From positions 1 to 42,537 of IMG/VR virus record IMGVR_UViG_3300008120_000101: a stretch of DNA of 42,537 bases; one strand, given 5' to 3'. Below are positions 24,987-37,048 of this stretch, piece by piece (the first letter of the stretch is position 1; every line of letters begins with the position of its first letter). Both the position numbers and the translations under genes were made by a program. A model generated the notes under the pieces. It saw nothing but the letters and a program-made list of their open reading frames with translations, did not search any database and had not been told where the DNA came from. This stretch comes from a virus.

Positions 24987-26167
24987 TGTATATTGATACA
25001 CTTATTTCTCATTTAACTCGTTCCTTTGTTGCGGGAATGAATTCTTTTGACCTTAAACTTATGCTAAGTTTAGATGACCAACTTAAATTCGGTAACTATC
25101 TCACTGAAAAACAAGGAAAGCTGGCTGTTTCATTATTGAAAAAATATAAAATAAAATTAACACAGGCATTGTTAATTGATATTTCACCTTTTCTTGAAAA
25201 TCCTCAATTCAAATACCCTTTCCGAGTGATAAACTTGTCACAATCCATAAAAATTATCAGCGACCCGACCCATATAAAATTGATAAAGGTCGAATTTCCT
25301 TATGATGAAAAAATTGTAACAAAGTTTAGACAAGAAAAACCTAAATTTTTTCATTGCCAATGGAATGATAGCGAACGAGCATGGCTTTTTTCATTAGAAG
25401 AAGCCAGTGTACAGTTTTTAATGTTATTGCTACCAGAATATAACTTCACATGTGATGATGAATTTGTAAAATACATGAACCAAATTCAAAGTATTCAAAA
25501 AAACATCGAACATCATGTGCCCATGATCACTAAAAATGAGGAGAATTTTAATTTTATTAATGTTGTTGAACATTTTCCTAAAATTACATCGAGTGATCTG
25601 GTAGAATCATTGTTCATGGCACGAAAATTAGGTATCTATACGTGGGACGAGGCAATTGATAAAGAAATTAATTCAGACAATATTGATCCTGAAGTTAGAA
25701 CATTTTTAAAAACTAACCCCAGTGATGCATTTTCATTAATTTTAACCGAAAAACCAATAAATTCATTAAAAAATATTGTTAAACATTTACTACCATGTCT
25801 TGTTGTAATCTCTAATGGATCAGAATTAACAAAATTACAAAACACTATTGACTTTTTTCACGAACTGAATATAGATAATTCAGAAATGAGCGTACTTTTT
25901 CGACTTCCAACAGATGGAGGTAAAGATTTTAACGAATATGTACGAGATAACAAATTAAACTCTTCTGTGACTGAGAAAACAAAAATAATTTTTATTAGCG
26001 AACATATTCCTAAAACTATTTTAGAACCTAAGAAAATATTTAATTCTGTGTTAAACTATAATTTTTATACAGCACATTATAAAATGAAAGAATTTTTGCG
26101 TTTTCAACCTAATGTAATTAATATTTTAGAAACACACAATAGGAAACTAAATTTTGGCAACATGTAA
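24986..26167 (+). CDS. unknown protein with HARP-like segment, upstream of uvsW
   Basis: A 393-residue protein. Residues 1-60 are helical with the LTEKQGKLAVSLLKKYK segment often seen at the front of phage replication proteins. Residues about 100-150 (VEFPYDEKIVTKFRQEKP, then WNDSERAWLFSLEEAS) resemble the HARP-type domain of annealing helicases, where a strand, a helix and a W..R.W turn bind forked DNA. The rest has no motif I recognise and no Walker A. It starts at the uvsY stop (TAATG) and overlaps uvsW by 14 nt, so it probably works with UvsW. The HARP link is an inference. Confidence 0.6.
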   Translation: MYIDTLISHLTRSFVAGMNSFDLKLMLSLDDQLKFGNYLTEKQGKLAVSLLKKYKIKLTQALLIDISPFLENPQFKYPFRVINLSQSIKIISDPTHIKLIKVEFPYDEKIVTKFRQEKPKFFHCQWNDSERAWLFSLEEASVQFLMLLLPEYNFTCDDEFVKYMNQIQSIQKNIEHHVPMITKNEENFNFINVVEHFPKITSSDLVESLFMARKLGIYTWDEAIDKEINSDNIDPEVRTFLKTNPSDAFSLILTEKPINSLKNIVKHLLPCLVVISNGSELTKLQNTIDFFHELNIDNSEMSVLFRLPTDGGKDFNEYVRDNKLNSSVTEKTKIIFISEHIPKTILEPKKIFNSVLNYNFYTAHYKMKEFLRFQPNVINILETHNRKLNFGNM

Positions 26168-27611
26168 AGTTATAATTAAAGATGAAATTAATGTTAAGAT
26201 TGAAAATCTTGATCTTGACACTAGAAAAGCATTGGTTAAAAAGTTTAAGTACGAAGATCCCACTGCTCGCTATCGTCCTGCCTATAAATTAGGTCGATGG
26301 GACGGTACAATTTCATTTTTTGGGCTAGGAGGAACTACTTATCTTTCTATGCTTCAACAAGTTTTAGAATTTTTAGAAAGCAGAAATTATTACATTGAAC
26401 TTGAAGATCAACGTATTGCTACAGACCTAAAATTTACTGAAATTTTTGAAGATTTTTGGGGTGAAAAATGCTGGCCTAAAGGACATCGCTTTGAAGGCCA
26501 CCCTATTCGTCTACGCGATGATCAAGTCGAAGTTATTAATAAATTTTTAGAAAATCCTCAATGCCTACAAGAAATTGCTACTGGTTTTGGCAAAACCATT
26601 ACTACCGCAACTTTGGCAAAAATTTGCGAAAAATATGGAAAAACTGTAACTATTGTACCTAACAAAAGCCTTGTTGAACAAACAGAAGAAGACTTTGTTA
26701 ACTGCGGTTTGGACGTTGGTGTTTACTACGGTGATAGAAAAGACCTAACAAGAACTCACACTATTTGTACTTGGCAAAGTTTGAATATTTTAGACAAAAA
26801 ATCACATGATGACGAACTTGATGCCTTAAAATTAGCTGAATTTTTAGACGGAATTCGTTGCGTAATGGTTGACGAAGTCCATATGGCCAAGGCAGAAGTC
26901 CTCAAAAAAATCCTAACACAAAATTTATCTAACGCTCCTATTCGATGGGGACTTACTGGCACTATCCCTAAACAAGATTTTGAATATCAAGCACTACGAG
27001 CTAGTATCGGAGACGTTGTACATCGAGTTTCTGCTCACGAATTACAAGCCAAGGGCGTGTTGAGTAACTGCCATGTAAACATTGTACAAACTGCCGAATG
27101 GAAAGAATTTGGTAGCTATGCAGAAGAACTAAAATATTTGGTCACCGACTCAGAAAGAATGACTTATATTAGTCGTTTGATTAAACAAATTGCAAATTCT
27201 GGTAATACTTTAGTTCTAGTGGATAGAATTGAAAGTGGAAAATTTATGATAAACGAATTGCCAGACAGTGTGTTTATATCGGGCGAAGTGAAAACAAAAG
27301 ATAGAAAAGAAGAATACGATGAAATTAAAACTGCTACTAACAAGATTATTGTGGCGACTTACGGTGTGGCCGCTGTGGGTATTAATATTCCTCGTATTTT
27401 TAATCTGGTTCTTTTGGAACCCGGAAAGAGCTTTGTTAGAGTTATACAAAGCATTGGGAGAGGTATTAGAAAAGCAGAAGACAAAGATCATGTAGAAATA
27501 TGGGATATTACGGCAAGTACAAAATATGCCAAACGTCATTTAACTGAACGTAAAAAATACTACAAAGATGCAAAATATCCTTTTAGTATTGAAAAAACAA
27601 AGTATATATAA
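26154..27611 (+). CDS. uvsW: UvsW-like superfamily 2 helicase
   Basis: A 485-residue helicase. An N-terminal DNA-binding domain (1-110, with YKLGRWDGTISFF) is followed by motif I ATGFGKT (142-148), motif II DEVH (240-243), motif III LTGT (267-270), and motif VI QSIGRGIR near the C terminus. UvsW reverses stalled forks and unwinds R-loops to end origin-driven replication. The start is TTG: AGGAAA (26141-26146) lies 7 nt upstream, the N-terminal domain begins at once, and the gene overlaps its neighbour by 14 nt. Slightly shorter than T4 UvsW. Confidence 0.92.
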   Translation: MATCKVIIKDEINVKIENLDLDTRKALVKKFKYEDPTARYRPAYKLGRWDGTISFFGLGGTTYLSMLQQVLEFLESRNYYIELEDQRIATDLKFTEIFEDFWGEKCWPKGHRFEGHPIRLRDDQVEVINKFLENPQCLQEIATGFGKTITTATLAKICEKYGKTVTIVPNKSLVEQTEEDFVNCGLDVGVYYGDRKDLTRTHTICTWQSLNILDKKSHDDELDALKLAEFLDGIRCVMVDEVHMAKAEVLKKILTQNLSNAPIRWGLTGTIPKQDFEYQALRASIGDVVHRVSAHELQAKGVLSNCHVNIVQTAEWKEFGSYAEELKYLVTDSERMTYISRLIKQIANSGNTLVLVDRIESGKFMINELPDSVFISGEVKTKDRKEEYDEIKTATNKIIVATYGVAAVGINIPRIFNLVLLEPGKSFVRVIQSIGRGIRKAEDKDHVEIWDITASTKYAKRHLTERKKYYKDAKYPFSIEKTKYI

Positions 27612-28862: not shown

Positions 28863-29074
28863 GATATTTTTCTTATAATGAATACAAAACTGAACCGGGT
28901 GTTGACGACTACGTTGCAACCGTGTCGGAAGAAGATATTAGAAAAGAATATTACCCTTATTGGTACGAAAAAATGTGTAAAAAATTCGGTCAAGAAACTG
29001 TAGATAGTAACTATTGTTTTGAAGATTGTCTAACAGATTGGGTTGTAGTACATTGGGCATGGGAAGTAAAATGA
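28859..29074 (+). CDS. small unknown acidic Tyr/Trp-rich protein
   Basis: A 71-residue protein rich in Tyr, Trp and acidic residues. YYPYWYEKMCKKFG and the C-terminal DWVVVHWAWEV are the striking parts, with three Cys. It is coupled by ATGA overlap at both ends. No function can be given. Confidence 0.65.
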   Translation: MRYFSYNEYKTEPGVDDYVATVSEEDIRKEYYPYWYEKMCKKFGQETVDSNYCFEDCLTDWVVVHWAWEVK

Positions 29075-29766
29075 TAGCACTAGTAGAACAACCTCATACT
29101 TGCATTCATTGCAAAAAGAAATTTATGCAAGAGAAAACTCTTGTGGCCCATATGTGTGAACGTAAACGTCGTGCTTTACAAAAAGATGAAAAACGTGTTC
29201 AGGCAGGTTTTATGGCCTATAATAGATTTTGGGAATTAACTCAGAATTCTAAAAAATCAAAGACCTATGACGAATTTGCTGATAGCAGTTACTATAACGC
29301 ATTTGTTAAATTTGGCAGTTTTATTAATAATGTAAATCCACTTTATCCTGATAAATTTATTGACTACGTTATCAAAAGCGGTGAAAAATTAGATAATTGG
29401 TGTAAGGATAAACTTTACGAAAAATATTTGTTCGAAATACTAAAAACTGAACCTGTTGAATCTGCTGTACAAAGAACTATTCAAACTATGATGGAATGGG
29501 CCGACGAACATAACGCAGAATTTGCACATTACTTTAATTACGTTAGTCTTAATAAAGCAGTATACGATATCTTAAACGGTCATATTAGCTGTTGGGTAAT
29601 ATTAAATAGCAAAGCTGGAAAAGACATGATTCAAAAAATGAATGACGAGCAAATATCTATGATTGCTCCGGCATTCGAAGCCAAGTATTGGTTTAAAAAA
29701 TTTAAAGAAACTCCTGCTGATGTTGCACTAGTAAAAGAAATTTGTAAAGAGATTGGGATAGAATGA
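29071..29766 (+). CDS. C2H2 zinc-finger phage protein
   Basis: A 231-residue protein. The ATG at 29071 (ATGA overlap) is preferred to an earlier TTG. Residues 9-31 form a near-classical zinc finger (CIHCKKKF, then LVAHMCERKRR), possibly CCHC. A basic stretch follows, then helical domains with FVKFGSFINNVN and MMEWADEHNAEFAHYF. It probably binds nucleic acid or a polymerase subunit; an early regulatory role would fit its place among replication genes, but this is inference. It overlaps the next gene by ATGA. Confidence 0.65.
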   Translation: MIALVEQPHTCIHCKKKFMQEKTLVAHMCERKRRALQKDEKRVQAGFMAYNRFWELTQNSKKSKTYDEFADSSYYNAFVKFGSFINNVNPLYPDKFIDYVIKSGEKLDNWCKDKLYEKYLFEILKTEPVESAVQRTIQTMMEWADEHNAEFAHYFNYVSLNKAVYDILNGHISCWVILNSKAGKDMIQKMNDEQISMIAPAFEAKYWFKKFKETPADVALVKEICKEIGIE

Positions 29767-30146: not shown

Positions 30147-30616
30147 TCGATGAAAAACTAAATTCTGCAAAAGGTAGAGATAGCTATGATTCTACTTCTA
30201 GTGGAAATTTAGTAGCATTCTTCAATAGAAATGTCACTCCTTATCCTACTGAGGCCGGAGGTCCTAAATTTGACCTAGTACCTGTAACTAAGCAAAAAGA
30301 TATAATGCTTAATGTTGCACGTCTATATGCACAACAAGAATATGATCGCATTATGGATCTCGTTAAGGTATTGCAAGGACAGGCTGAACAATTAAAAAGA
30401 AGATTAGAAATTACTGATGCAGTACATGCTGCCGAATATCAATTCCAAGTTTATCATGATCAATGCTATTGGCTAGCATTTGATAAAAGAAAACAAAAAA
30501 CCATTTTGTGTCATCACGGACCTAATGATTCTTTAGTAACTGAAGGATATGATTGGATAGCTAGAGTAAAATGGTTAGGTGACCATACTTGGATAGAAGT
30601 AGAGGACGATAAATGA
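30143..30616 (+). CDS. DUF2452 family protein
   Basis: A 157-residue protein. The segment from RDSYDSTSSGNLVAFFNRN through VTPYPTEAGGPKFDLVPV, then the helical ARLYAQQEYDRIMDL and the C-terminal WIARVKWLGDHTWIEVE, is the characteristic DUF2452 sequence found mostly in bacterial genomes. Its function is not known. It is complete here and unusually well kept, with ATGA overlaps at both ends, next to the cupin and ADP-heptose genes. Confidence 0.8.
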   Translation: MIDEKLNSAKGRDSYDSTSSGNLVAFFNRNVTPYPTEAGGPKFDLVPVTKQKDIMLNVARLYAQQEYDRIMDLVKVLQGQAEQLKRRLEITDAVHAAEYQFQVYHDQCYWLAFDKRKQKTILCHHGPNDSLVTEGYDWIARVKWLGDHTWIEVEDDK

Positions 30617-30969
30617 GATTGGAAGGATTTGTAGAAAAAGGATGGGGTCATGAACTCATTTGGGCTACCAATGACAAATATTGCGGTAAACTTTTAAAGT
30701 TCAATAAAGATGCGCGGTTCAGTATGCACTTTCACGCAGAAAAAGATGAAACTTGGTTTGTACTATCTGGCAAATTTCTTGTAAAATATATCGATACTAG
30801 AGATGCTACCGAACATCAAAAAGAATTAAATGTAAATGATACATGGAGGAATGAACCTCTATTCCCACATCAGATCTTTTGTTTAGAAGAAGGTACAATT
30901 ATAGAAGTTAGCACACCAGATAGTGTAAGTGATAATTATCGTGTAGCAAAAGGTGATAGTCAAAAATGA
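30613..30969 (+). CDS. cupin, sugar-isomerase-like
   Basis: A 118-residue single-domain cupin. The metal site is His39-x-His41 with Glu46 (MHFHAEKDE), and the start GFVEKGWGHELIW resembles mannose-6-phosphate isomerase type II cupins. It may isomerise or epimerise a sugar phosphate or nucleotide sugar. It is the first of four coupled genes leading to ADP-heptose (ATGA overlaps before and after), so it may replace a missing step or tailor the heptose. Confidence 0.75.
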   Translation: MRLEGFVEKGWGHELIWATNDKYCGKLLKFNKDARFSMHFHAEKDETWFVLSGKFLVKYIDTRDATEHQKELNVNDTWRNEPLFPHQIFCLEEGTIIEVSTPDSVSDNYRVAKGDSQK

Positions 30970-31739
30970 AAATATTAGTTACAGGTCATAAAGGATTTAT
31001 AGGACAGAATTTAACTGCTGCATTGAAAGATGATCACGAATTAACATTTTACGAATGGGGAGATCCTCCCCCAGAGTTTGAAGGTCTTGATTGGTGCATA
31101 CATCTCGGCGCATTAAGTTCCACTACTGAAAGAAATGTTGAAAAAGTTATGAGACAGAATCATGACTTTAGTTGTATTATATTAATATCTTGTCAATTGC
31201 ATGGTGTTAATTTACAATATTCTAGTAGTGCTAGTATATATGGTCAATTAAACGAATTTAGAGAAGATGGTCCAGTAGATCCTCGTAGTCCATATGCTTG
31301 GAGCAAATACCTATTTGACCGACATGTTACTACTCAAAATTTTGATAAAATAGTAGTTCAAGGTTTTAGATATTTTAATGTCTACGGTCCGCATGAAGAT
31401 CATAAAGGAGATCAAGCTAGTCCTTATCATAAATTTGAAAAACAGGCAAAAGAAACCGGTATAATTAAAATTTTTGAAAATTCTGATAAATTCTTTAGAG
31501 ATTTTGTTCCTGTTGAAACGGTGATAGATGTTCATAAAACATTTTTAAATGTTAAAGAAACTGGCATATGGAACGTAGGAACAGGTAAAATAAAATCTTT
31601 TGAAGAAGTGGCACAAGAAATAGCAAAAAAATATAACGCAACTATAGAGTATATTCCTATGCCCGAACATGTAAAAACTCAATATCAATCCTATACCAGA
31701 GCAGATGTTACTAAATTAAGAAAACACTATCAAATATGA
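30966..31739 (+). CDS. hldD: ADP-L-glycero-D-manno-heptose 6-epimerase, HldD-like
   Basis: A 257-residue extended short-chain dehydrogenase. The NAD motif GHKGFIG is at 7-13, HLGALSSTTE at 46-55, SSSASIYG at 86-93, catalytic Tyr110-x3-Lys114, and FRYFNVYGPHEDHKG at 134-148, the last specific to HldD. It converts ADP-D-glycero- to ADP-L-glycero-D-manno-heptose, the LPS inner-core donor. It is about 50 residues shorter than bacterial HldD, mainly between the first strand and the SSTTE motif. It overlaps both neighbours by ATGA in a tight operon. Confidence 0.88.
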   Translation: MKILVTGHKGFIGQNLTAALKDDHELTFYEWGDPPPEFEGLDWCIHLGALSSTTERNVEKVMRQNHDFSCIILISCQLHGVNLQYSSSASIYGQLNEFREDGPVDPRSPYAWSKYLFDRHVTTQNFDKIVVQGFRYFNVYGPHEDHKGDQASPYHKFEKQAKETGIIKIFENSDKFFRDFVPVETVIDVHKTFLNVKETGIWNVGTGKIKSFEEVAQEIAKKYNATIEYIPMPEHVKTQYQSYTRADVTKLRKHYQI

Positions 31740-32137
31740 AAAAAATAATTGTCAACGGAACATTTGATATTGTTCATGTTGGACATTTACGTCTTTTAGA
31801 ATATGCCAGGTCCTATCCTGATTCTTATATCTATGTGTTAATTGATAGTGATAATAGAATTAAAAAATTAAAAGGTCCAGAAAGACCGATAAACAACGAA
31901 TATGAAAGAGCTAGCTTATTAGCAGCATTGAGGTCTGTAGATAAAGTTGATATCTTTGATACAGATGATGAACTGAGAAATTATATAAAAAATTATGAAC
32001 CGGATCTAATGATCAAAGGCAGCGACTATATAGATAAACCAATTATAGGTTCAGAATTTTGTAAACAAATTATCTTTTATGATAGACTTAACAAATACTC
32101 AACTACACAAAAAATTCAAGATATTGTTAATAGGTGA
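31736..32137 (+). CDS. heptose-1-phosphate adenylyltransferase (HldE C-domain-like)
   Basis: A 133-residue nucleotidyltransferase with GTFDIVHVGH at 8-17 and MIKGSDY at 92-98, as in the C-terminal half of bacterial HldE (RfaE). It joins AMP to D-glycero-beta-D-manno-heptose-1-phosphate. In E. coli this domain is fused behind the kinase; here it is a separate gene placed before the kinase gene and overlapping it by 59 nt in another frame. Confidence 0.82.
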   Translation: MKKIIVNGTFDIVHVGHLRLLEYARSYPDSYIYVLIDSDNRIKKLKGPERPINNEYERASLLAALRSVDKVDIFDTDDELRNYIKNYEPDLMIKGSDYIDKPIIGSEFCKQIIFYDRLNKYSTTQKIQDIVNR

Positions 32138-32861
32138 TAGTTGCATAGATGAATACTATTACGGTACTTGTGATAGACTAAATCCCGAAGCACCTGTTCC
32201 TGTGTTAAAAATAACACATTGGAATTCAAAATATGGTATGGCAGCTAATGTTAAAGATAATCTCGAAGCATTTAACTGTGATGTTGATTTTATGACCGGC
32301 GGCAAAAAATCAATCAAACGTAGATATATCGATGAACGTAGTAAACAACATATTGTTCGAGTAGATGAAGATAAAATAAGCTCGCCATTTAATCCTAATT
32401 TTAAATCTTTAGCATTTGATCAGTATAATGCTATTGTTATCAGTGATTATAACAAAGGTTTTGTGACCTACGAAAATATAGCTGAAATTAGATTGCTATA
32501 TAAAGGACCAATTTTTATCGATAGTAAAAAATCAGATTTGAAAAAATTTGAAGGATGCTATGTAAAGGTTAATGAACAAGAAAGTAAAAGTTCCATATCA
32601 CATTGCGACAATCTGATAATAACATTAGGCGATAAGGGAGCTAAATTTAATAACCAAATATTCCCAACAGAAAAAGTAGAAATGGTAGACGTTTGCGGAG
32701 CAGGTGATACATTTTTGGCAGCACTGACTTACTTTTTCTTACTGACAAATGATATTAAAACTGCTATAATTTATGCAAACAAATGCTCGGCAATTTCCGT
32801 ACAACATCAAGGTGTTTATACTTTAACAACTCAAGATATAGAAACAATTAAAAATGCCTGA
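32079..32861 (+). CDS. heptose-7-phosphate kinase (HldE N-domain-like)
   Basis: A 260-residue PfkB-family kinase. IGDSCIDEYYYG (18-29), the HldE signature NPEAPVPVL (35-43) and the anion-hole/catalytic motif CGAGDTF (about 207-213) are present. It phosphorylates D-glycero-D-manno-heptose-7-phosphate to the 1,7-bisphosphate. It is shorter than the usual kinase domain (about 315 residues). The ATG at 32079 lies inside the adenylyltransferase gene (59 nt overlap); a start at TTG 32124 would leave the fold nearly intact, so the exact start is open. Confidence 0.82.
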   Translation: MIDLTNTQLHKKFKILLIGDSCIDEYYYGTCDRLNPEAPVPVLKITHWNSKYGMAANVKDNLEAFNCDVDFMTGGKKSIKRRYIDERSKQHIVRVDEDKISSPFNPNFKSLAFDQYNAIVISDYNKGFVTYENIAEIRLLYKGPIFIDSKKSDLKKFEGCYVKVNEQESKSSISHCDNLIITLGDKGAKFNNQIFPTEKVEMVDVCGAGDTFLAALTYFFLLTNDIKTAIIYANKCSAISVQHQGVYTLTTQDIETIKNA

Positions 32862-33432
32862 TATTGATATTGACTTTCACGATAGAACTCAAATATTAAA
32901 TATAATTGAACATATACCTGCTTCAATTATAGAAAAAGATCTTGTTAAAAAACACAACACTGGTGTTTATTGTCAACAAATACCTACTAATCCTTTAAAT
33001 AATCTTGCTAGTATTGATTACAAAACAGCAGAGGATAGAGGATATTTTAAATTAGATTTTCTTAACGTTAACATTTATAAAAATATAAAAAACGAAGAAC
33101 ATTTAATAAAACTTATGGAGACTGAACCACTATGGGATCTACTAGAGCAAGACGAATTCATCAATCTACTGTTTCATCTAAACGGACATGGGAATATCTT
33201 GAGAACCTTGAAACCCAAGAATGTCGAACAACTGGCAGCAGTACTGGCCTTAATTCGCCCGGCAAAAAGACACTTGCTTCATCAACCTTGGGATCAAATT
33301 TTAAAAGAAGTTTGGGTAAAACCTGATAATAATGATTACTATTTTAAGAAATCTCACGCAGTTGCATATGCATTGGCGATTATTGTACAGATGAACTTAA
33401 TATGTGAATCTATTGGCTACGAATATTCTTAA
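32854..33432 (+). CDS. miniature DnaE/DNA polymerase III alpha-like protein
   Basis: A 192-residue protein made of three DnaE pieces in the right order. PDIDIDF (2-8) matches the palm motif with both metal Asp (D5, D7). KLDFLN (66-71) matches the KFDFLG motif with the third palm Asp (D68) and its Lys (K66). LKPKNVEQLAAVLALIRP (119-136) and FKKSHAVAYAL (164-174) match the fingers. The long stretches normally between these, plus PHP, beta-binding and OB domains, are gone. It may be a minimal polymerase, a regulator or a repurposed fold. It overlaps the heptose kinase by 8 nt and the opposite gene by 23 nt. Confidence 0.75.
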   Translation: MPDIDIDFHDRTQILNIIEHIPASIIEKDLVKKHNTGVYCQQIPTNPLNNLASIDYKTAEDRGYFKLDFLNVNIYKNIKNEEHLIKLMETEPLWDLLEQDEFINLLFHLNGHGNILRTLKPKNVEQLAAVLALIRPAKRHLLHQPWDQILKEVWVKPDNNDYYFKKSHAVAYALAIIVQMNLICESIGYEYS

Positions 33433-33790
33433 CAGATTTAACTAATTGAATTGATTTTCTTTTAACACGCTTTTCGGCAATATCACTTAGATTTACTATA
33501 GGTCCGAATAATAAATCAACATCCTTGGCATTGAATGTTTTTATAAAAGGCCTAAATACTATCATTTCTTTCTTTAGAAATATATTGATGGGAATTTTAC
33601 GATTACTTTCCCACCACCACGTGTCTCCCATCTCTAAGAAAAATTTTCTTTCTTCTTCCCCACTTACCATCGATATATCATAAATGCTGACTATATTACT
33701 ATCAAAATTGACAATGATGCCGATATATTCCTTATTGTTGGATCTAATACAACTTAAAAACGGATAATTAATTTGAAACTTGTCTTTCAT
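33410..33790 (-). CDS. unknown minus-strand protein
   Basis: A 126-residue protein. The ATG at 33790 is chosen over a TTG three codons upstream. It is beta-rich in the first half (INYPFLSCIRSNNKEYIGIIV) with a striking GDTWWWESNRKIPINIF segment near the middle and a basic C-terminal helix. No family recognised. It is convergent with the DnaE-like gene, overlapping by 23 nt, and divergent from a late-type virion gene. Confidence 0.6.
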   Translation of the reverse strand: MKDKFQINYPFLSCIRSNNKEYIGIIVNFDSNIVSIYDISMVSGEEERKFFLEMGDTWWWESNRKIPINIFLKKEMIVFRPFIKTFNAKDVDLLFGPIVNLSDIAEKRVKRKSIQLVKSVKNIRSQ

Positions 33791-33798
33791 TATATTCA

Positions 33799-33805
33799 AT
33801 AAATA
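33799..33805 (+). promoter_or_regulatory. late-type promoter motif ATAAATA
   Basis: ATAAATA ends 8 nt before the ATG at 33814, with no Shine-Dalgarno sequence. It sits in the 23 bp gap between divergent genes. Confidence 0.55.
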
Positions 33806-34659: not shown

Positions 34660-35658
34660 ATGAGTGAGATACAAGCAGCATTACAAGCACTATTGCCTCC
34701 AAAGAAAAAGCTAACTCCTAGCGGATGGACTAGCTTTAACGCTCCTTGTTGCCATAATAGAGGTGAATCTAAAGATAATCGTCAACGTGGTGGAATACTA
34801 CTAAATCCCAACGGTGGCTTCCAATATCACTGCTTTAATTGCAACTTTAAAGCAGGATGGAGCACTGGACATCTTTTATCAAAAAATACTAAAAGCCTTT
34901 TTAAATGGCTAGGACTTTCTGATACTGAAATTGATAAACTGTCTTTTATTGCACTACAAAATAAACAGGATCAACCTGGAAATAAAACAACAATTAAATT
35001 TGAACTTGAAGAACGAACTTTACCCGATAACTGTTTGCCTATAGATACTTGGGTAGCCGAAGGCGCTCAAGATACTGAACTACTCGATGTAATTAAATAT
35101 TTGGCAAATGAGCGCAAAGTAGGGTGGGATTGGTATCCGTGGCATTGGAGCCCCGAAAACGGCTACAGAGATCGAGTGATATTACCATTTTATCATAACG
35201 GTAAAATTGTAGGTTGGACAGGAAGAAAAATAGGAGATGGTAAACCAAAATACCTAACAGACACTCAACCTGGCTATGTATTCAATATTGACCATCAAAC
35301 TTACGATAGAAAATACGTAATAGTAGTAGAAGGACAATTCGATGCTATTGCTATAGATGGCATCGCTGTTATGCACAACGACCCTAACGAAACACAATGC
35401 TCTAGAATTAATGCATTGGGCAAAGAAGTCATTGTTGTACCTGATAGAGATAAACCGGGCGCTAAATTAATTCAGGCAGCACTTGACAATCATTGGACAG
35501 TGAGCTTACCGCCTTGGGAAGAACATATTAAAGACGCAGCAGATGCAGTTAAACATTATGGTAGATTGTACACACTTTTCACAATTCTACACTATCGAGA
35601 AACAAACGAGATAAAAATACAACTACTAAAGAAAAAACTAGAAGCACTCAATGGATAA
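34660..35658 (+). CDS. 61: DNA primase, gp61-like
   Basis: A 332-residue primase. The N-terminal zinc site has C30-C31-H32 and C58-x2-C61 (CCHNRGE, then YHCFNCNFKAGW). The TOPRIM core has VVEGQFDAIAIDG at about 224-236 and VVPDRDKPG later. It makes short RNA primers for lagging-strand synthesis and works with the helicase encoded next. Size equals T4 gp61 (342 residues). It overlaps the helicase gene by 8 nt, which keeps the two subunits of the primosome together. Confidence 0.92.
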   Translation: MSEIQAALQALLPPKKKLTPSGWTSFNAPCCHNRGESKDNRQRGGILLNPNGGFQYHCFNCNFKAGWSTGHLLSKNTKSLFKWLGLSDTEIDKLSFIALQNKQDQPGNKTTIKFELEERTLPDNCLPIDTWVAEGAQDTELLDVIKYLANERKVGWDWYPWHWSPENGYRDRVILPFYHNGKIVGWTGRKIGDGKPKYLTDTQPGYVFNIDHQTYDRKYVIVVEGQFDAIAIDGIAVMHNDPNETQCSRINALGKEVIVVPDRDKPGAKLIQAALDNHWTVSLPPWEEHIKDAADAVKHYGRLYTLFTILHYRETNEIKIQLLKKKLEALNG

Positions 35659-37048
35659 ACCTAATTACAACTTAGACACACAAAGATTATATCTGGAAAT
35701 GTTTTTGTCGGACGCAGAAACATTTATCCGCTGTCAAAATATTTTTGACCCGGAAAACTTTGATCGAAGATTACAAAATGTTGCTGAGTTCATTAACAAA
35801 TATGTTGATGAATATAAGGTCATGCCCGAAGTTAGAATTGTTAATGCTACTTGTGGAAGTAATCTAGAAACACTATCGTTACCTAGAGAAAACTATGAAT
35901 GGCTCATGGACGAGTTTGAACATTTTAGTCGACATAAAGGACTAGAACGTGCTATTCTAAAATCCGCTGACTTACTGGAAAAAGGTGATTACGGCCCTGT
36001 AGAAAAACTAATCAAAGACGCTATCCAAATTAGTCTTAACAAAGATATGGGTACAGATTACTTTGAAGATCCTCGCTCTAGACTTGAGAAAATTAAAAAT
36101 AATAACGGACAAACTTCAACAGGTTGGCCTTCAGTAGATAAGAAACTCTACGGCGGATTTAATCGAGGAGAACTTAATATCTTTGCAGCAGCATCGGGCG
36201 GCGGCAAAAGTCTATTCCTAGCTAACCTTGGTGTGAACTGGGCTATGTTGGGATTGAACGTAGTCTACTTGACTTTTGAACTTAGTGAAAATCTAGTGGC
36301 TATGCGACTGGATAGTATGATGACCGGCATCTCAACTAGAGAGATTTTTAAATCAATCGACGACGTTGAATTGAAGGTTAAAATGGCGGAAAAACGTGCA
36401 GGAAGCATACAGATTAAGTATATGCCTTCAGGAAAAAATTGTAACGATATTCGCGCCTATTTGAAGGAATATCAGGTCAAAAAGGGGCAAAAACCAGACG
36501 TTTTGTTAATAGATTACCTGGATTTAATGATGCCTCTAAGTGTGAAGGTAAGTCCTAGTGATCTGTTTGTTAAAGACAAATACGTGTCAGAAGAGATCCG
36601 TAATTTGGCTATGGAAACACAATGTATTACAGTTACAGCTAGTCAGCTGAATCGAAGTGCCGTAGAAGAAATCGAATTCGATCATAGTCACATTTCAGGT
36701 GGTCTGAGTAAGATTCAAACAGCTGATAACGTGATCGGTATCTTTACTAGTCGTGCTATGAAAGAACGTGGCAGATATCAAATACAATTTATGAAAACTC
36801 GTTCTAGCTCAGGTGTGGGTCAAAAAGTGGATTTAGAATTTAATGTTGATACTTTACGTATTACAGATTTAGGCGAAGATGAAGAACCTAGCTTTAATCA
36901 ACAAAAAATGCAAACTAGCAATGTTGCACAAGCCCTAAAACGCTCTAGCAAAATTGAAACAGCACCAAATCAAGAAACTACATCAAGCCCTAAAAAAGTT
37001 ATGGATATTAGAAATATTTTAGCTCAAATTAACAGTGAAAAAGATTAA
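35651..37048 (+). CDS. 41: replicative DNA helicase, gp41-like (DnaB family)
   Basis: A 465-residue helicase. A helical N-terminal domain (1-150) is followed by the RecA-type core with Walker A AAASGGGKS (about 178-186), VVYLTFELSE, Walker B LLIDYLDLM (about 285-293), and TASQLNR and GGLSKIQTADNVIGI toward the end. The hexamer unwinds DNA 5' to 3' at the fork and binds gp61. The C-terminal tail (about 415-465) is Ser/Thr/Gln-rich and disordered. It converges with the AlgH-like gene with a 4 nt overlap. Confidence 0.93.
   Translation: MDKPNYNLDTQRLYLEMFLSDAETFIRCQNIFDPENFDRRLQNVAEFINKYVDEYKVMPEVRIVNATCGSNLETLSLPRENYEWLMDEFEHFSRHKGLERAILKSADLLEKGDYGPVEKLIKDAIQISLNKDMGTDYFEDPRSRLEKIKNNNGQTSTGWPSVDKKLYGGFNRGELNIFAAASGGGKSLFLANLGVNWAMLGLNVVYLTFELSENLVAMRLDSMMTGISTREIFKSIDDVELKVKMAEKRAGSIQIKYMPSGKNCNDIRAYLKEYQVKKGQKPDVLLIDYLDLMMPLSVKVSPSDLFVKDKYVSEEIRNLAMETQCITVTASQLNRSAVEEIEFDHSHISGGLSKIQTADNVIGIFTSRAMKERGRYQIQFMKTRSSSGVGQKVDLEFNVDTLRITDLGEDEEPSFNQQKMQTSNVAQALKRSSKIETAPNQETTSSPKKVMDIRNILAQINSEKD

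Follow-up and report, generated by a model that had tools for sequence, protein, structure and literature searches.

A DnaE-like gene in a conserved replication block

We analysed a 42,537-nucleotide stretch of viral DNA (IMG/VR record IMGVR_UViG_3300008120_000101, hereafter the window) and observed a small gene whose 192-residue product, here called the C-half, resembles the palm of bacterial DnaE. The last 8 bases of the upstream PfkB-type kinase gene are shared with the start of this gene (ATG at 32854), whose 3′ end is in turn overlapped by a small convergent gene of the phrog_11637 family. The C-half gene lies within a conserved replication block that runs from uvsW to the primase and DnaB genes (Table 1), and a matching gene order is annotated in Phosso, Atu_ph07, Paride, SCTP-2, GAP32, Vibrio 2.275.O, 121Q and CBB. 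The near-constant position of the phrog_11637 gene beside the C-half suggests that the two may be functionally linked.

The original prediction had placed the gene between heptose and primase genes. The primase is indeed a fixed neighbour, but the sugar/heptose cassette is found in only ~10 of 123 relatives and is thus an occasional insertion; this ruled out the cassette as a functional partner of the C-half. Elsewhere in the window, positions 1-1626 hold a long tandem-repeat array with units of 12, 30, 42 and 114 bases. One of its frames seems to encode repeats rich in Thr, Ser and Trp, which may be the terminal part of a large virion or fibre protein truncated at the contig edge.

Table 1 Features of the C-half gene and its neighbourhood (positions in the window; "with room" marks relatives whose sequence extends far enough).
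Feature	Position	Strand	Evidence
UvsW-type helicase, upstream member of the conserved block	26154..27611	+	phrog_16, E 1.6e-79; 25/26 relatives with room
phrog_11058 protein with C2H2-like zinc-finger motif (CIHCKKKF...HMCERK)	29026-29766	+	Upstream of C-half in 96/97 relatives with room
Sugar/heptose cassette: cupin, NAD-dependent epimerase, RfaE2-like nucleotidyltransferase, PfkB-type kinase	30613-32861		Between phrog_11058 gene and C-half
C-half of split minimal Pol III alpha (phrog_11778)	32854..33432	+	ATG, 192 aa
D3, I4, D5, I6, D7 codons: metal-binding DxDxD (E. coli DnaE D401, D403, D405)	32860..32874	+	D3, D5, D7 invariant
K66-L67-D68 codons: K-x-D motif (E. coli K553/D555)	33049..33057	+	K66, D68 invariant
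R135-P136-A137-K138 codons: end of fingers remnant (E. coli RP ~639-640)	33256..33267	+	R135, P136, K138 invariant
K165-Y172 codons (KKSHAVAY): KxH motif (E. coli KSHS, H760)	33346..33369	+	H168, Y172 invariant
Small convergent gene	33410..33799	-	phrog_11637, E 9e-35; 123/124 relatives with room
DnaG-type primase	34660..35658	+	phrog_47, E 2.6e-38; 110/111 relatives with room
DnaB-like replicative helicase (T4 gp41 type)	35651..37048	+	phrog_19, E 3.2e-74; 83/84 relatives with room

Motifs, conservation and predicted fold of the C-half

The 192-residue protein contains MPDIDIDF, KLDFLN, the LKPKNVEQLAAVLALIRP helix and FKKSHAVAYAL, all in DnaE order. Profile searches with Pol III alpha models matched it to phrog_11778 ('DNA polymerase'; E 1.8e-68, residues 3-186), to phrog_405, which represents full-length phage DnaE (E 8e-9), and to the NCBIfam DnaE model PRK05673 (E 5.4e-5); Pfam returned only the finger domain, below cut-off. 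The translation and these family matches confirm the DnaE-like frame with four ordered motifs that had been read from the DNA. A profile HMM of the C-half family scored E. coli DnaE at 11.5 bits, compared to a maximum of 5.1 for 2000 composition shuffles of DnaE, and the likeness is therefore real and well beyond chance. An hhalign comparison with the single E. coli DnaE sequence gave a weak, co-linear alignment (probability 12%, E 0.0024), and we did not use it as support. In its length class (~190-215 aa), its PDIDIDF start and its DxDxD, KxD, RP and KxH motifs, the protein has the characteristics of a C-half of the split form described below.

The catalytic aspartates of E. coli Pol III alpha are D401, D403 and D555. 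The HMM alignment of the C-half to E. coli DnaE covers only residues 399-419, the KxD motif, 596-641 and 752-767, with the equivalence of K66/D68 to K553/D555 assigned by motif, and the three palm aspartates are retained as D3, D5 and D68. Among 108 distinct homologues (minimum pairwise identity 32%), D3, D5, D7, H34, G37, P44, A59, K66, D68, W94, I134, R135, P136, K138, H168 and Y172 are invariant. The original prediction that the palm aspartates and the Lys-x-Asp pair are intact thus holds across the family, in which the aspartates do not vary freely. The selection on the palm that it had implied was also borne out: the median dN/dS is 0.14 (289 pairs), and selection on the C-half is purifying. 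As a separate observation, the annotated C-half of Atu_ph07 (FDI40_gp074, L083 8073-8567) starts downstream of the DxDxD motif, while the frame has an ATG further upstream (MKNIPDIDIDF); the record thus omits the catalytic aspartates.

We modelled the C-half with AlphaFold using the family alignment, which gave a confident prediction (pLDDT 92.2, pTM 0.83). In a Foldseek search of the PDB, the first 13 matches were family C polymerases (best E 3.4e-4, probability 1.00, TMq ≤0.57), with TM-scores near 0.5 because of the large deletions. The predicted fold is therefore related to that of DnaE, as had been proposed, and Pol III alpha structures match it best. In comparison to canonical DnaE, the 192-residue protein has no PHP domain, thumb, complete fingers or C-terminal clamp/OB domains. 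This agrees with the earlier description of a protein from which everything between the motifs is deleted, insofar as the thumb is absent and little of the fingers remains; that description had missed that the GRGS segment of the palm, upstream of PDIDIDF, is absent as well.

A second gene for the missing half of the palm

The GxGRGS loop (GRGS at E. coli 361) is a further essential element of the DnaE palm and lies just upstream of PDIDIDF. This nucleotide-binding palm half is absent from the 192-residue protein, which thus does not carry a full palm on one chain. Instead, the GRGS half is encoded by a second, distant gene (phrog_11127), whose product we call the N-half. In profile alignments to E. 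coli DnaE, the N-half stops at residue 392 and the C-half begins at residue 399, indicating that they are complementary pieces of one palm from which only a short linker has been lost. Six positions (G137, G139, R140, G141, S142 and S146, as numbered in one freshwater N-half) do not vary among 51 N-halves. An AlphaFold model of one N-half had a pLDDT of 86, and its first 15 Foldseek matches in the PDB were family C polymerases (best E 0.04, probability up to 1.00). The N-half of CBB, gp328, is a 172-aa protein (PF07733, E 2.1e-8) that ends in ...GLGRGSSVSSYCLYLIGLHLVDSIKYELDVNEFLKW and is encoded ~33 kb away from the CBB C-half gene; it was called truncated in the 2017 CBB genome paper (PMC5259590).

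The 42.5-kb window itself holds no N-half (best E 0.19), and its four largest close relatives each carry one, 136-184 kb from the C-half in the record. Overall, 15 to 200 kb separate the N-half and C-half genes, an unusual distance for parts of a single enzyme and a point against their forming one. No fused form was found among 134 C-half and 71 N-half loci, at which the longest frames are 232 aa and 217 aa, respectively.

We then determined how often the two genes co-occur. In searches of whole records, both were present in 22 of 22 records of at least 270 kb (phage 121Q being counted in two collections). Two environmental contigs, 181 and 207 kb long, also carry the pair. Records with one half only are all ≤221 kb, as expected for fragments. 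A family B polymerase (PolB) was found in all 12 large records tested, and none is visible in the 42.5-kb window; the same 12 records gave no further DNA_pol3_alpha match above cut-off.

By tblastn, the C-half is found in 90 phage records, each <60% identical to the window protein. They include the 121Q/RaK2/GAP32/CBB group, PA5oct/Paride/Callisto, Atu_ph07, Phosso, SCTP-2, XacN1 and Vibrio 2.275.O, and identity to the cultured relatives is 38-52%. At least 554 stretches in IMG/VR encode C-half relatives, the best 80 of which are 61-72% identical. A scan of genome contigs returned a single mini form, on the 3.7-kb contig PUKM01000272.1 of a Natrialbaceae archaeon MAG; the C-half there is flanked by phage-type neighbours, and we set this case aside as a probably misbinned phage contig. 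The other 64 matches were 27-33% identical, mostly over residues 51-137, as expected for cellular DnaE. RaK2-like phages with both halves also carry a gene for a DnaQ-like 'epsilon' exonuclease in the C-half block (L087 2723-3568, L089 2802-3620 and L090 8818-9663). In bacteria, epsilon is held by the PHP domain, which the split alpha lacks.

Proposed role of the split palm

Full-length bacterial and phage DnaE share with the phage pair the order of palm motifs, the catalytic residues and the best PDB fold matches. The split form differs in having its palm on two polypeptides and in lacking the PHP, thumb and C-terminal domains as well as complete fingers. Cyanobacterial DnaE is likewise encoded by two genes, DnaE-n and DnaE-c, whose chains are rejoined by a split intein, and its break lies near the KSH motif. 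In the phages, by contrast, the chain is divided after GRGS and before PDIDIDF, and the two pieces leave no room for an intein.

A split minimal Pol III alpha has already been described in 'group 2.2' jumbo phages, with Atu_ph07 among those named (Iyer et al. 2021, PMC7824862). Encoding a family C piece as well as a family B polymerase, which the original prediction regarded as unexpected, is therefore a documented trait of this group. The published form has an N-terminal NTP-binding and a C-terminal metal- and template-binding protein encoded by distant genes, and occurs with PolB in the same phage groups; we found no essential difference. The window is a further, freshwater-type example of this known split alpha, with its N-half presumably outside the fragment. 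The same authors suggested that the split form is ancestral, and PF07733 has been reported in 51.9% of one marine jumbo-phage cluster (PMC9123017). In the literature searched, the 2021 paper was the only work on the split form, and no biochemical assay of the enzyme was found.

Taken together, the family match, invariant residues, 392/399 boundaries, 22/22 co-occurrence, conserved block, structural models and independent description make it very probable that two genes together encode a minimal family C (Pol III alpha/DnaE-type) nucleotidyltransferase, with the 192-residue protein as its C-terminal subunit. Judging from the sequences, the two halves would bind each other to form one two-metal nucleotidyltransferase site. 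The C-half would bring the metal-binding DxDxD and KxD strands, the Arg-Pro at the end of the fingers remnant and the KxH motif, and so would provide the metals and the template side of the shared active site. The N-half, encoded elsewhere in the genome, would contribute the GxGRGSS loop for the triphosphate of the incoming nucleotide.

It is improbable that the assembled halves have no catalytic role and instead serve as a scaffold, regulate PolB or the primase, or act as a decoy of host Pol III; a decoy had been raised before, and we do not favour this reading. The lack of the thumb, most of the fingers and the exonuclease- and clamp-binding domains would fit it, as would the active PolB in the same genomes, but strict conservation of D3, D5, D7, K66, D68 and GxGRGS is unexpected if catalysis has been lost. 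The first suggestion for this protein, a minimal nucleotidyltransferase or primase helper that acts without a partner, is more doubtful still. Every metal-binding residue does lie in the C-half, which is predicted to fold compactly and confidently by itself (pLDDT 92, pTM 0.83); however, the family-invariant GRGS loop sits in the second gene, which accompanies the C-half in every large relative genome. Decay of a dnaE gene captured from bacteria would explain the absence of most DnaE domains and the 'truncated' label given to one half, but it is almost certainly wrong, since the frames are open in >100 divergent homologues, dN/dS is low, the active site is invariant and synteny is constant.

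The two-gene enzyme would probably act as a distributive helper beside the neighbouring primase and DnaB helicase, because the PHP, thumb and C-terminal clamp-binding domains are missing along with most of the fingers, and because the same genomes encode PolB. Given the constant primase and DnaB neighbours and PolB in the part of the replicase, we consider primer extension or short-gap repair the likeliest roles. Primer extension before hand-over to PolB, by analogy with DnaE and PolC of B. subtilis, is our leading but tentative suggestion; short-gap repair, the main alternative, appears rather unlikely. With no thumb and little left of the fingers, the pair need not work as an ordinary polymerase. 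The two-protein palm might be a dedicated enzyme of another kind, such as a primase-tied primer-extending polymerase or a template-independent nucleotidyltransferase, rather than a slimmed replicase, although we regard this as somewhat doubtful. If so, no smaller family C catalytic unit would be known, and the enzyme would be active only as a heterodimer encoded by distant genes.

To the known split form we add residue-level conservation, the boundaries of the pieces, synteny and co-occurrence counts. The window and its relatives show that the split trait is common in environmental viruses, the freshwater type included, and that in both halves few positions are as well conserved as the catalytic residues. 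In conclusion, the split enzyme is widespread and strongly selected in T4-like jumbo phages. From the pair one could learn how little family C nucleotidyl transfer requires and why phages that carry PolB retain a bacterial-type polymerase core.
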